DNA of 64,000 bases, taken from NCBI GenBank assembly GCA_019192455.1, contig JAHCML010000006.1, forward strand, positions 124,604 to 188,603, read 5' to 3'. The DNA comes from Alphaproteobacteria bacterium SS10. GTDB taxonomy: Bacteria > Pseudomonadota > Alphaproteobacteria > TMED2. Numbering within the stretch: position 1 is the first letter of the stretch; the number at the start of each line of letters is the position of its first letter. Position numbers and translations under genes: made by a program. Positions 2,489 through 7,265 of this stretch are shown here, one piece after another. Below the pieces are notes generated by a model. The model was given only the letters and a program-made list of their open reading frames with translations, was not told the DNA's origin and searched no databases.

Positions 2489-2689
2489 ATGACCGATGAC
2501 ATGCTGAGGCGGCTGCGCGAACAGCGGCAGCGCCTGGAGCGCGAGCGCGAAGAAATCCGCCACCGGCTCCACAACTCACTTGATGAAATTGATGCTGGCA
2601 GACTTGCCACCGGAACCGGTGTGCAGGCCATCAGGCGTGCGTTTGAACGTGGTATCAAGCAAAGCGATGGTGGACAGCCGCTTCAATGA
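2489..2689 (+). CDS. Putative antitoxin of a ParDE-like module
   Basis: A 66-residue, highly charged, mostly helical protein (LREQRQRLEREREEIRHR at residues about 8-25), typical in size and composition of small antitoxins but without a motif that names the family. The call rests mainly on the next gene, a ParE/RelE-type toxin whose ATG overlaps this stop codon by four bases (ATGA at 2686-2689), the usual antitoxin-first arrangement. I place the start at ATG 2489 because the in-frame extension upstream (codons for SGGGIA) runs through the G8 tract, which serves better as a ribosome-binding site 7 nt before the ATG. The antitoxin would bind and neutralise the toxin and probably repress the operon (inference). 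Confidence 0.6.
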   Translation: MTDDMLRRLREQRQRLEREREEIRHRLHNSLDEIDAGRLATGTGVQAIRRAFERGIKQSDGGQPLQ

Positions 2690-3081
2690 AGCCGTTCAGC
2701 CTGTCGCGCAGCGCTGAACAGCGGTTGGGTCAGATTGCCGGCTGGACCGCTTCTAACTACGGTTACGACAAAGCGCTCGAATACCAAGATCAATTGATCG
2801 ATACGTTAACCGCCCTGGATGGCGGTGAGCTTCCGGATGGGAAATCCTGCGCGCCCCTACTCGGCGCAAAGCATGCCAACCGGGATGTTCGATATCTGAT
2901 GTCAGGCCAACATCACATCGTCTATGAGCGGCAACCGGATCAGATTGTGGTGCTTGACTTCATTCACCGCGCGATGGATCTAAACCGCCATCTGAGCCTG
3001 GTAGGCGAGGAACTGTCCAAGGTCGATGCCGCGCAAGAACGTGGCTCAAACCCTGACAGACGGCGCTCAAACGGATTGTAA
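2686..3081 (+). CDS. ParE/RelE-family toxin
   Basis: A 131-residue protein with the ParE/RelE toxin fold pattern. An N-terminal helix pair (SAEQRLGQIAGWTASNYG, residues 8-25) is followed by a Y..QLIDTL helix. The C-terminal strand block includes RDVRYLMSGQHHIVYERQP and the signature-like FIHRAMDLNRHL (about residues 91-102). This matches the H..MD..RHL end of ParE toxins, which poison DNA gyrase; RelE members instead cut mRNA, and the sequence alone does not settle which. It carries about 28 extra residues after the signature (LVGEELSKVDAAQERG onwards), longer than the usual ~100-residue toxin. It overlaps the antitoxin gene by 4 bp, suggesting translational coupling. Confidence 0.8.
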   Translation: MKPFSLSRSAEQRLGQIAGWTASNYGYDKALEYQDQLIDTLTALDGGELPDGKSCAPLLGAKHANRDVRYLMSGQHHIVYERQPDQIVVLDFIHRAMDLNRHLSLVGEELSKVDAAQERGSNPDRRRSNGL

Positions 3082-3165: not shown

Positions 3166-3618
3166 ATGTGGGGCCAGTTTATTGGGCAGCGCCTAAGCCG
3201 GCAGCAAAAAGCCGACAACGCCGCCATCGAAGTTCTCGGTTTTATCTCAGCGCCGCAAACCAGCAGCGACGGCATCACGTCGATCGTGCATGACGACCAG
3301 CAAAAGGGTCTGGCTCGCAAATATGCTGGCCTGGCGGCCCAAGGTCTGCGATCAACGGCAATCCAGAACGATAAATCCGCGACCCGGCTACTCGGTGACC
3401 TCCGTGAGAGCCTGGACTATGTCGCAAAGGCTCGGCCACAGTTGGCCGATGAGGTGATGACCGCCACGCGCCGTCGCTTTGAAGAAGAGGCGGCAGAGGT
3501 TGTTCAACGTGTCTTCGGCGGCGACCACGCGGAGAAGATGACCCCCGATGCGGTTGCCCGTGTTACCGAAATCCACGAACGCCGGTTCGACCCATCACCG
3601 CTAGCTGCCCACGCATAA
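3166..3618 (+). CDS. Hypothetical protein, helical, 150 residues
   Basis: I do not recognise this family. The protein is soluble and predicted mainly helical, with a charged segment RRRFEEEAAEVVQRVFGGDHAEKM near residues 105-127 and no signal peptide or membrane segment. The start ATG (3166) is preceded by AGGGAGAG at 3151-3158, a good ribosome-binding site. Codon use (C/G-ending codons) matches neighbouring genes, which supports real coding. It lies 84 bp downstream of the toxin gene in the same direction, so it could be read from the same promoter, but nothing links it functionally to the toxin. Confidence 0.6.
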   Translation: MWGQFIGQRLSRQQKADNAAIEVLGFISAPQTSSDGITSIVHDDQQKGLARKYAGLAAQGLRSTAIQNDKSATRLLGDLRESLDYVAKARPQLADEVMTATRRRFEEEAAEVVQRVFGGDHAEKMTPDAVARVTEIHERRFDPSPLAAHA

Positions 3619-3715: not shown

Positions 3716-3749
3716 TTGACGGGATGATGCGTTTTGCGTCACCGTTTCT
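3716..3749 (+). promoter_or_regulatory. Candidate promoter for the riboswitch transcript
   Basis: TTGACG at 3716-3721 is a good -35 box. The -10 box at the proper spacing (about 3739-3744) is poor. A start near 3748 would place the SAM-II aptamer at the very 5' end of the RNA, where it normally sits. Supported mainly by position. Confidence 0.4.
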
Positions 3750-3805
3750 TCAGCGCCGATTTGAGCTACAGCTTGCTGGGCGCTTAACAAATGCAGCTAA
3801 AGCGT
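3750..3805 (+). ncRNA. SAM-II riboswitch (metA motif)
   Basis: The sequence matches the SAM-II consensus in order. A P1 stem AGCGCC (3752-3757) pairs with GGCGCT (3779-3784). The conserved loop entry GATTTGA (3758-3764) and TTGC (3773-3776) follow, and the hallmark tail AAATGCAGCTAAA (3789-3801) forms the pseudoknot in this class. SAM-II binds S-adenosylmethionine and switches off sulfur/methionine genes in Alphaproteobacteria. Here the next gene is a sulfonate-type ABC substrate-binding protein 170 bp downstream. An intrinsic terminator starts about 15 nt after the aptamer, so control is probably by premature transcription termination rather than by hiding a ribosome-binding site (inference). 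Confidence 0.85.
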
Positions 3806-3817
3806 GGGTGTGGATGT

Positions 3818-3853
3818 CCCGCCCCCAGGTTTTAAGCTGTGGCGGGTTTTTTT
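3818..3853 (+). terminator. Intrinsic terminator of the SAM-II riboswitch
   Basis: CCCGCC (3818-3823) pairs with GGCGGG (3841-3846), followed directly by seven T (3847-3853). Bases 3834-3843 in the loop and right arm are also complementary to aptamer bases 3765-3774, ten contiguous pairs including one U-G. This would give an alternative antiterminator that breaks both the aptamer and this stem. Confidence 0.8.
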
Positions 3854-3976: not shown

Positions 3977-4993
3977 ATGTCCATTATTGCGAAGGCAACC
4001 AACCTTACCCGCCGTACAGCCCTAGGCCTACTCGGCGCCGCCACCCTGATCCCGGCAATCGCTGGCACCCCAGCCGCCGCATCAGACCTCAAACAAATCA
4101 CCATCGACTGGGCCTACTACAATCCAGTCAGCTTGATCCTCAAAGATCAGAAGCTGTTGGAAGATGAGTTCAAGGCTGACGGTATCCGCATCCGCTGGGT
4201 ACAGAGCCATGGCTCAAACAAGGCGATTGAGTTCCTGAACTCACGCAGTGCTGATTTCGCCTCAACCGCTGGGGCCGCTGCCCTGCTCGCCAAGATCAAT
4301 GGCAGCCCGATCAACGCCATCTATGTCTACTCAAAGCCTGAGTGGACCGCGCTGGTCACCAATCAGGACAGCGACATTCAAACCGTTGAAGACCTGCGCG
4401 GTAAGCGCGTTGCAGTGACCCGCGGTACTGATCCCTACATCTTCCTGCTGCGCGCACTCGCCGATCATGGCCTGACTGAAGACGACATCAAGCCGGTCCT
4501 GCTGCAGCATGCCGATGGTGGTAATGCACTGAAGCGTGGCCAGGTTGATGCCTGGGCTGGGCTGGACCCAATGATGGCTGGCCAAGAGCTGAAGGACGGC
4601 GCCCGCCTGTTCTTCCGCGATCCTGACCTCAACACCTATGGCTTCCTGAACACCCGGACGGCGTTTGCGGAAGAGCACCCGGAGATCGTGAACCGCGTCT
4701 TGAGCGTCTATGAGAAGGCCCGCGCCTACGCCATCGACAACCCGGATGTGCTGCGTGACACCCTCGCCAAGGCTGCCCGCCTTGAGCCAGCGGTCGCTGA
4801 AAAGCAGCTGGAGCGGACCGATCTTAGCAACCCGTTCATTGGTGCCGTTCACGCTGAACATATCACCGCCGCCGGCATCGCCCTGCAATCCAGCGGCATC
4901 ATCGCCGATGATGTGGATGTGGCCGGTAACACCAACGCGCTGATCGATACCCAATTCGTTCAGCCATTCGTTGAGAAACAAGCGTCGAACTAA
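3977..4993 (+). CDS. Sulfonate-type ABC transporter substrate-binding protein
   Basis: A 338-residue periplasmic binding protein of the SsuA/TauA/NrtT family (NMT1-like fold). It captures a small organosulfur compound, most likely an alkanesulfonate, for the permease and ATPase encoded next. The N-terminus has a twin-arginine-like export signal (LTRRTALGLLGAA at about residues 10-22, cleavage after AAA-S near 36). Typical family segments are ITIDWAYYNPVSLILKDQ, HGSNKAIEFLNSRSADFA and VEDLRGKRVAVTRGTDPY. A SAM-II riboswitch and terminator precede it, implying repression when SAM is plentiful and agreeing with a sulfur-scavenging role. The exact ligand cannot be read from the sequence; methionine derivatives are an alternative given the SAM control. 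Confidence 0.85.
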   Translation: MSIIAKATNLTRRTALGLLGAATLIPAIAGTPAAASDLKQITIDWAYYNPVSLILKDQKLLEDEFKADGIRIRWVQSHGSNKAIEFLNSRSADFASTAGAAALLAKINGSPINAIYVYSKPEWTALVTNQDSDIQTVEDLRGKRVAVTRGTDPYIFLLRALADHGLTEDDIKPVLLQHADGGNALKRGQVDAWAGLDPMMAGQELKDGARLFFRDPDLNTYGFLNTRTAFAEEHPEIVNRVLSVYEKARAYAIDNPDVLRDTLAKAARLEPAVAEKQLERTDLSNPFIGAVHAEHITAAGIALQSSGIIADDVDVAGNTNALIDTQFVQPFVEKQASN

Positions 4994-5017: not shown

Positions 5018-5058
5018 CCCGGCCGCAGCGTCCTCCCTTCCCCTGCGGCCGGGTCTTT
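5018..5058 (+). terminator. Intercistronic GC hairpin with short T-run
   Basis: CCCGGCCGCA (5018-5027) pairs with TGCGGCCGGG (5044-5053) and is followed by TCTTT. It lies between the binding-protein gene and the permease gene. Such hairpins commonly let the abundant binding protein be made in excess over the membrane parts, through partial termination or 3'-end protection. A stem with nearly the same arms lies between dctP and dctQ at 15295-15319. Confidence 0.7.
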
Positions 5059-5097: not shown

Positions 5098-5946
5098 ATG
5101 AGCTCGATCACAGCAGATACAGCGCTAAACAGCGCCAAGCCGAGTGCACGCCGGTTCCGCCCATTTCAGTTTCTGAAAGGCCGCCTGACCTGGATTGAGC
5201 CGCTGATCCTTCCACTGTTGATCGCGGGTATCTGGGAGGGGGCCGCAAAGTGGGGTTGGATTGACGCCCTACTGCTGCCGCCACCAAGCGCCGTCGCCGA
5301 AGAGATTGCCTATCTCTGGCATAACCAAGACCTCGATTTACACATTCAAGCGACCGTTTGGCGGGTCGCTGTTGGCTTTGCCGCTGGTGCCATTGTCGCG
5401 ACCATTCTGGGCGCCATCACTGGCTATGCTGAGCGCGCGTTCCGGGCCATCGACCCGACCATTCAAGCGCTGCGCTCCATCCCATCCATTGCGTGGGTGC
5501 CACTGTTCATCCTGTGGTTTGGCATCTTTGAAGCACCAAAGGTTCTGTTGATCGCCGTCGGCGCCTTCTTCCCGATCTATCTCGGCCTCTCCACCGCTAT
5601 TCATGGCGCTGATCGTAAGCTGGTTGAAGTTGGCCGTGTCTACCGCCTGTCAGCCGCGGCGATGATCACCCGCATCCTGCTGCCAAGCTCACTGCCCGCC
5701 TACCTAACCGGCCTTCGTAATGGCCTGGCCCTAGGCTGGATGTTTGTCGTTGCCGCCGAATTTATGGGCGCCAGCGAGGGGCTCGGGTTTCTGCTAATCG
5801 ACGGTCAGATGACCGGCCGGGCCCAAACAATCATCGCCTCAATCTTCCTTTTCGCCTGCCTTGGAAAAGCCTCAGATTGGCTACTTGCCGGCCTCTCAAA
5901 GCCCCTTTTGAGCTGGCAGGATGACTTCCAATCAACGCGCGCATAA
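5098..5946 (+). CDS. ssuC: SsuC-type ABC transporter permease
   Basis: A 282-residue inner-membrane permease with about six membrane helices and the binding-protein-dependent transport domain. The cytoplasmic EAA-type loop is visible as VYRLSAAAMITRILLPSSLP near residue 180, which docks on the ATPase. The start is set at ATG 5098 because GAGGAA (5085-5090) gives a ribosome-binding site with 7-nt spacing; a TTG at 5083 would place that site inside the gene. It follows the binding protein after the GC hairpin and precedes the ATPase by 22 bp, forming a standard sulfonate-type importer. Confidence 0.87.
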   Translation: MSSITADTALNSAKPSARRFRPFQFLKGRLTWIEPLILPLLIAGIWEGAAKWGWIDALLLPPPSAVAEEIAYLWHNQDLDLHIQATVWRVAVGFAAGAIVATILGAITGYAERAFRAIDPTIQALRSIPSIAWVPLFILWFGIFEAPKVLLIAVGAFFPIYLGLSTAIHGADRKLVEVGRVYRLSAAAMITRILLPSSLPAYLTGLRNGLALGWMFVVAAEFMGASEGLGFLLIDGQMTGRAQTIIASIFLFACLGKASDWLLAGLSKPLLSWQDDFQSTRA

Positions 5947-5968: not shown

Positions 5969-6775
5969 ATGAGCCTCGTTATCTCCTCTGTGAACCGACA
6001 TTTCGATCTGGATAAGGGCCGCCAGGTCCAGGCCCTCAAAGGCATCGACCTTGCTGTTGGCCAGGGTGACTTCGTTTGCCTGCTCGGCGGTAGTGGCTGC
6101 GGTAAGAGTACACTGCTGCGCCTCATCGCCGGGTTGGACCAGCCGAACAGTGGCAGCCTTACCCTGAATGGCACCCCCATCGACCAACCACGTGACGAGG
6201 TTGGCATCGTCTTCCAAGAGCCACGCCTGCTACCATGGCAACGGGTCTCCGCCAATGTGGGCTTTGGCCTTAAGGGTGTTGAGAAGGGGGCCAAGAAGGA
6301 ACGCATTCAAGGGATCCTGGATGAAGTTGGCCTTGGCGATAAGGGTAAGTCGTGGCCACGCCAACTCTCCGGCGGTCAGGCACAGCGTGCCGCCATCGCG
6401 CGCGCGTTGGTTCAGGCCCCAGAACTTCTATTGCTGGATGAGCCGTTCTCCGCGGTTGATGCCCTCACCCGCGCCGATCTGCACGAGCTACTGCTCGGCC
6501 TATGGCGGGAGCATGGCTTCACCACCATCATGGTGACCCACGACATTGATGAAGCCTTGGCCCTTGCCGACCGTATCGTTGTGATGGGTGCCAATCCTGG
6601 CCGCCTGGTCGGTGAAGTGCTGGTAAGTCAGCGCCGCCCACGCAATCCAAGTGCCCCGGGGCAGCAGCAGCTGCGCCGAACCATTCTAGACATGCTGGCC
6701 CAAGGCAAAGCCCGCCAGCCCGACCCCTCAACGAGAGAGAACCAAGATGACGAACAAATCCGACGCGTTGCGTGA
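5969..6775 (+). CDS. ssuB: SsuB-type ABC transporter ATPase
   Basis: A 268-residue ATP-binding subunit that powers uptake through the preceding permease at the cytoplasmic face. It shows Walker A GGSGCGKST (about residues 39-47), Q-loop FQEPRLLPW, ABC signature LSGGQ (about residue 133), Walker B LLLLDEPFSAVD and the H-loop TMVTHDIDEA-like segment. The FQEPRLLPW form of the Q-loop is typical of the nitrate/sulfonate/taurine branch. Its last 29 bp overlap the start of the OsmC gene in another frame, so the two are translationally linked. Confidence 0.9.
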   Translation: MSLVISSVNRHFDLDKGRQVQALKGIDLAVGQGDFVCLLGGSGCGKSTLLRLIAGLDQPNSGSLTLNGTPIDQPRDEVGIVFQEPRLLPWQRVSANVGFGLKGVEKGAKKERIQGILDEVGLGDKGKSWPRQLSGGQAQRAAIARALVQAPELLLLDEPFSAVDALTRADLHELLLGLWREHGFTTIMVTHDIDEALALADRIVVMGANPGRLVGEVLVSQRRPRNPSAPGQQQLRRTILDMLAQGKARQPDPSTRENQDDEQIRRVA

Positions 6776-7265
6776 GCTTCAGGCACCCTTAAAAGCGCAA
6801 TACCGTGAAGATCCGGATAGCGCGGTTATCACCCTGAAAGCTGATGGAGAGCTAGAGAGTGACAAGATCGTCTGTAAGGTCGATACGGGTAAAGCGCTGG
6901 TCGAAGCTGGCCTCCACCCCGCAACCGGTGGTGACGGGCTCTCCGCTTGCTCCGGTGACATGCTGTTGGAAGCCCTCGTCGCCTGCGCCGGCGTTACCCT
7001 TAAAGCGGTTGCCACGGCACTCGATATCCAGGTCCGTTCCGGCCAGGTGAAGGCCGAGGGCGACCTCGATTTCCGTGGCACCCTCGGTGTCGATCGGGAA
7101 GCTGCAGTCGGCTTCCGCGATATTCGCCTAACCTTTGAGTTGGACACAGACGCCGATGATGAGCAGGTGGCAACCCTGCTCAAACTCACCGAGCGCTATT
7201 GCGTGGTGCTTCAGACCCTGCAAGCGGGCCTGACCATCGACAGCAAGATCAAGGTCGCTGCTTAA
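6747..7265 (+). CDS. OsmC-family protein
   Basis: A 172-residue OsmC/Ohr-superfamily protein, the last gene of the riboswitch-controlled operon. OsmC proteins use paired cysteines to reduce organic hydroperoxides or handle reactive sulfur compounds. The family core is visible as LSACSGDMLLEALVACAGVT (about residues 70-89), supplying the two cysteines, and the C-terminal RYCVVLQTL segment with a third. It overlaps ssuB by 29 bp and shares 4 bp convergently with ilvE. Its place in a sulfonate importer operon suggests a role in processing or detoxifying the imported sulfur compound (inference). It could equally be a general peroxidase. Confidence 0.8.
   Translation: MTNKSDALRELQAPLKAQYREDPDSAVITLKADGELESDKIVCKVDTGKALVEAGLHPATGGDGLSACSGDMLLEALVACAGVTLKAVATALDIQVRSGQVKAEGDLDFRGTLGVDREAAVGFRDIRLTFELDTDADDEQVATLLKLTERYCVVLQTLQAGLTIDSKIKVAA

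Follow-up and report, generated by a model that had tools for sequence, protein, structure and literature searches.

The leader RNA at positions 3751–3853 of the 64,000-nucleotide stretch of DNA that we analysed (the window; Alphaproteobacteria bacterium SS10) appears to be a SAM-II riboswitch that works through transcription termination, and we are highly confident in the explanation as a whole, i.e., such a riboswitch followed by the operon of an organosulfur importer with an OsmC protein. A preliminary description of the sequence had observed a SAM-II aptamer here, and positions 3751–3808 are indeed a genuine one, which would be expected to bind SAM. In the open-access literature that we searched, the reported SAM-II targets are methionine genes (PMC4239095, PMC1273637); Leyn et al. 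(2014) found the class, as SAM_alpha, only in Rhizobiales and Rhodobacterales, with metY, metA, metX, metC, hom and metW as targets (PMC4239095). A SAM-II in front of an Ssu-type operon is not described in the same literature. This is a known riboswitch class with a new target, and with a regulon wider than in that literature. The aptamer is made up as follows:

3751–3808, + strand: SAM-II aptamer (27.7 bits with RF00521; 78.2 bits with R2, a model built from orthologs)
3752–3757 paired with 3779–3784 (span 3752–3784), + strand: P1, with 98% of cells paired across 17 sites
3771–3776 (GCUUGC) with 3796–3803 (GC-U-AA-A-GC), + strand: pseudoknot P2b
3766–3769 (CUAC) with 3804–3807 (GUGG), + strand: pseudoknot P2a, with pair changes across 17 sites

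The search with the RF00521 covariance model, proposed earlier as a check, matched the leader over 3743–3820 with an E value of 3.2e-4 (601 nt against 4227 Rfam families), the score of 27.7 bits falling under the curated gathering score of 36 bits. For this reason the SAM-II site was absent from a default Rfam scan of the whole window, in which a tRNA was the sole entry. A whole-genome search of the host with RF00521 did not recover the site because its first look passed over it. The Rfam cut-off conceals many real SAM-II sites, since only 5 of the 14 orthologous loci tested passed it. The R2 covariance model, with 16 orthologous sites as input and the window sequence left out, gave the window site an E value of 1.9e-16, the runner-up position in the window scoring 10.2 bits. 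No other SAM-II site was detected in the host genome.

The core bases GAUUUG, CUUGC and GCUAAA were exact in the window, where GATTTGAG, CTTGC and GCTAAA were all found, and they were near-invariant across 17 sites, so that the claimed consensus match and the conservation of the core in orthologous loci were both borne out. The full spaced SAM-II pattern, which was written after the site had been seen, was matched at a single place in the window, with 0 mismatches, the expected number being 0.01 even at 3 mismatches. P1 lay exactly where it had first been placed, with AGCGCC pairing with GGCGCT. Across the 17 sites (window included), the outer P1 pair was A-U in nine and C-G in six, while one P2a pair was U-A, A-U or G-C in 13 and unpaired in four. 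Overall, 94.5% of cells in P1 and the P2 pseudoknot were paired, with double-sided changes at four pairs. Covariation was higher than in 500 of 500 shuffles and than in every slid version of the structure; these counts are not probabilities, since shuffles ignore the kinship of the sequences, and the slid control leans in favour of the structure because the latter was read off the same sequences. All three helices, P1, P2 and P2a, are formed, with covariation in P1 and in P2a among the orthologs.

Around the aptamer lie the elements of a promoter and an expression platform:

3716–3721, + strand: TTGACG, a likely −35 box that would place the start site roughly on the first base of P1
3793–3813 paired with 3819–3840 (span 3793–3840), + strand: antiterminator, −27.3 kcal/mol, which takes the 3′ strand of aptamer P2
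3818–3853, + strand: intrinsic terminator, with CCCGCC 3818–3823/GGCGGG 3841–3846, CAG 3826–3828/CUG 3837–3839 and seven U's at 3847–3853

TTGAC was present 34–37 nt 5′ of P1 (model position 1) in 16 of 18 SAM-II sites, i.e., the window and 17 orthologous loci, the spacing at one of them (L042) being taken by eye from the sequence; the exceptions were L026, which has TTTAC, and L064, which lacks the box. No consensus −10 was found in the window promoter. A promoter directly upstream of P1 has been described for SAM-II (PMC1273637).

The terminator (−14.4 kcal/mol) is the MFE fold of 3808–3853, and it uses bases in common with the antiterminator, so that the two are mutually exclusive. The antiterminator duplex of the window was beaten by only 3 of 1000 dinucleotide shuffles, and was also significant in several orthologs, though not in L011, L013, L025, L026, L064 or L023. 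Hairpins resembling CCGCC...GGCGG, mostly with a U tract, followed the aptamer in the majority of the orthologs and of the genomes sampled. The expression platform is not uniform, since five ortholog leaders (L012, L024, L035, L043 and L062) had no clear U tract. In several leaders of this kind the hairpin is followed by CCUCC, complementary (by eye) to the ribosome-binding sequence GGAGG, and in these a translational version of the switch, via CCUCC/GGAGG pairing, is possible. The layout of aptamer, antiterminator and terminator in the window is that of a transcriptional OFF switch, and the predicted folds thus match the earlier proposal that expression is shut off when SAM is abundant. Of the span first assigned to the riboswitch (3750–3853), 3751–3808 stood as aptamer, whereas its end, 3853, corresponds to the final U of the terminator's U tract.

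The leader is followed by four genes:

3977–4993, + strand: SsuA-family substrate-binding protein (TIGR01728, 220.7 bits against a cut-off of 163.5; PF09084; ATG at 3977)
5101–5946, + strand: ABC permease (BPD_transp_1, SsuC/SaoP/TauC-like; PF00528; best NCBIfam match SsuC, 160 bits against a cut-off of 347)
5969–6775, + strand: ABC ATPase, SsuB-like (PF00005; best NCBIfam match SsuB, 233.5 bits against a cut-off of 395)
6747–7265, + strand: OsmC-like protein (PF02566, 66.5 bits; conserved ACAG and RYCVV cysteine sites)

The domain and NCBIfam matches, and the gene order, agree with the Ssu/Tau-type binding protein, permease, ATPase and OsmC named in the preliminary description. The osmC gene can be assigned to the operon because its first 29 nt lie within the ATPase gene. 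Between the binding-protein and permease genes, at 5018–5053, a G+C-rich hairpin of 11 perfect base pairs (CCCGGCCGCAG/CTGCGGCCGGG) precedes TCTTTA and may lower the expression of the genes for the membrane and ATPase components. On the other side of the leader lie a gene resembling 2-methylcitrate dehydratase PrpD (637–2160, − strand), divergent from the operon; a gene for a ParE-type toxin-like protein (2686–3081; PF05016, 29.8 bits); and, next after the latter, an open reading frame (3166–3618) with no Pfam or NCBIfam match.

We infer the direction of control, the cargo and the role of OsmC as follows. At low SAM, 3793–3813 would pair with 3819–3840, blocking the terminator and allowing the binding protein-permease-ATPase-OsmC operon to be transcribed. 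At high SAM, the pseudoknot would keep 3796–3807, 3818–3828 would pair with 3837–3846 before the seven U's, and RNA polymerase would stop. The operon would bring in a sulfur-containing organic compound as a sulfur source, with OsmC perhaps helping to handle that compound or thiols derived from it. Uptake of an organic sulfur compound is probably shut down by SAM, because a genuine SAM-II fronts the importer operon and the same pairing recurs in many relatives.

This recurrence was seen in two surveys. Of 80 loci encoding related binding proteins, 17 besides the window had a clear SAM-II upstream (from records named Alphaproteobacteria or proteobacterial MAGs), and one further locus (L070) had a weak one. 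In a sample of 385 genomes of the same class, 25 carried the binding protein (defined at E <= 1e-85), and in 15 of these, window genome included, SAM-II lay directly before its gene, an arrangement for which a check of related genomes had been proposed earlier; the other 10 had no SAM-II upstream of the binding protein, even with filters off. In three of the 15 genomes, all of one family (G135, G235 and G317), a separate osmC had its own SAM-II, the two aptamers being about 700 nt apart. On a tree of binding proteins SAM-II was scattered, with at least seven changes forced by well-supported branches, so that it is not a marker of one clade. We saw no alternative RNA control, since Rfam found no other riboswitch in 27 loci that have this transporter and lack SAM-II. 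Recurrence in related genomes confirms the importer as a SAM-II target. Like aptamer identity, covariation, the exclusive folds and operon layout, it is a computational result.

Two other readings of the leader RNA were considered. It is very improbable that the aptamer is a degraded, non-functional SAM-II relic from a duplicated met leader: although the Rfam score is under the gathering score, and the window has one extra U 3′ of the P2 5′ strand relative to most orthologs, the conserved core bases are all intact and score 78 bits with the independent ortholog model, terminator and antiterminator are also intact, and the aptamer has been retained before orthologous genes with only 54–68% protein identity. 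That the leader is instead SAM-V, or another pseudoknotted SAM aptamer acting by translational control, is scarcely credible. The ligand core is common to SAM-V and SAM-II (PMC6061858), but RF00521 was alone among SAM families in matching the leader at an E-value limit of 10, at which the SAM-V model RF01826 gave no match, and a 4-bp P2a followed by a terminator is typical of SAM-II.

The preliminary description took the cargo of the importer to be an alkanesulfonate (Ssu/Tau type), with SAM repressing sulfonate uptake. The importer was supported and the sulfonate was not, and we regard that cargo as unlikely, i.e., possible in the host but not favoured. The binding protein is above the SsuA-subfamily cut-off, E. 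coli SsuA (2x26) is among its nearest solved relatives by sequence, and in one genome (G354) a true ssuA-ssuD (SsuD, 622 bits) is under SAM-II as a different operon. However, the SsuA subfamily model does not discriminate between substrates, and the top match among solved structures, 3e4r, was deposited as a nitrate transport protein; moreover, the permease and ATPase are far under the SsuC and SsuB cut-offs. Neither the host genome nor G131 had a match to SsuD or TauD in searches that were positive in E. coli; the host genome (G000) is rated 100% complete, and such absences rest on search sensitivity. The sulfonate label is thus unproven, because neither of these two tested sulfonate-cleaving enzymes was detected to use the cargo. 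The importer could instead carry methionine, methionine sulfoxide, a different organosulfur compound, or a sulfonate cleaved by another desulfonation route. MetQ/NlpA also had no match in the host genome by a search that was positive in E. coli. The host has a CysH-type reductase and four strong Cys/Met PLP enzymes, none of them near a SAM-II. Naming the cargo from neighbour genes was abandoned because the clues were too mixed across loci; they include genes for acetyl-CoA synthetase and cystathionine synthase next to that for OsmC in Phaeospirillum (L034), and zinc alcohol dehydrogenases at two loci (L012 and L020).

The same aptamer was also found in front of other genes. We tallied the targets of the 84 strongest sites plus three tandem second copies (tandem sites being counted twice), assigning downstream genes by best BLAST match to representatives and leaving nine sites without assignment. 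MetY-like genes were the targets at 29 sites, the window-type binding protein at 14, MetN at seven and MetQ at three, a count biased toward the importer because the sampling model, which favours aptamers resembling its own input sites, was built from sites before that gene family. OsmC came first at eight sites, followed at five of these by a MetY-like gene (L140, L141, L142, L122 and L167), which constitutes a second osmC context; in two compared, this OsmC was 25–27% identical to that of the window. There were also siroheme synthase (cysG; five), CysH (four) and sulfite/nitrite reductase (two), with one each of MetH, MetF, a sulfate-binding protein and canonical SsuA-SsuD. A RimK-type ATP-grasp gene (a weak match) followed SAM-II at two sites (L193:633-1613 and L184:623-1585), and a PF03601 (YeiH-type) membrane protein was downstream of another (L164:4352-6007). 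The tandem aptamers were 134–233 nt apart, before metY-like genes in G105 (L162) and G378 (L151) and before cysH in G163 (L134).

Because SAM-II precedes metY, metN, metQ, cysH, cysG and other sulfur genes, control of the importer belongs to a broader sulfur regulon. The contrast drawn earlier, of an importer rather than a methionine gene, holds at the window locus but is weakened by the occurrence of the same aptamer before metY, metN and metQ elsewhere. With these targets, SAM-II reaches beyond methionine synthesis into sulfur acquisition (ABC importer, osmC, cysH, cysG, sulfite reductase, sulfate-binding protein and metNQ). We suggest, tentatively, that the Ssu-like ABC transporter and OsmC form an unrecognised module for organosulfur compounds other than sulfonates, and that SAM-II is a broad controller of sulfur supply in several alphaproteobacterial lineages; if so, its control would span sulfate reduction, siroheme, methionine uptake and the Ssu-like/OsmC module.

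Compared with the known SAM-II (SAM_alpha, RF00521) of metA, metX and metY, the window switch has the same P1, P2/P2a pseudoknot, core, promoter position and terminator platform (PMC1273637), but it fronts an ABC importer and osmC, and not met genes. The operon resembles SsuABC in its SsuA-subfamily binding protein, SsuC-like permease and SsuB-like ATPase, and differs in that SsuD and TauD were not found in the host genome and that an OsmC gene lies within it. S-box riboswitches before ssuABC in Bacillota likewise place a SAM riboswitch before COG0715/COG0600/COG1116 transporters; those, however, are of another aptamer family, in another phylum, with riboswitches in tandem and no mention of osmC where they are described, and there the authors read the transporter as a hydroxymethylpyrimidine importer (PMC12452182). 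In Candidatus Pelagibacter ubique, osmC is under SAM-II, as in the window operon, in a bhmT-osmC operon, and responds to sulfur limitation with the strongest induction of any gene (PMC5069961); unlike that of the window, this operon has no transporter, and its SAM-II is in tandem with SAM-V. The link between SAM-II and osmC thus recurs in three contexts, i.e., the importer operon, osmC-metY and Pelagibacter bhmT-osmC, so that the role of OsmC in sulfur metabolism can be tested directly.
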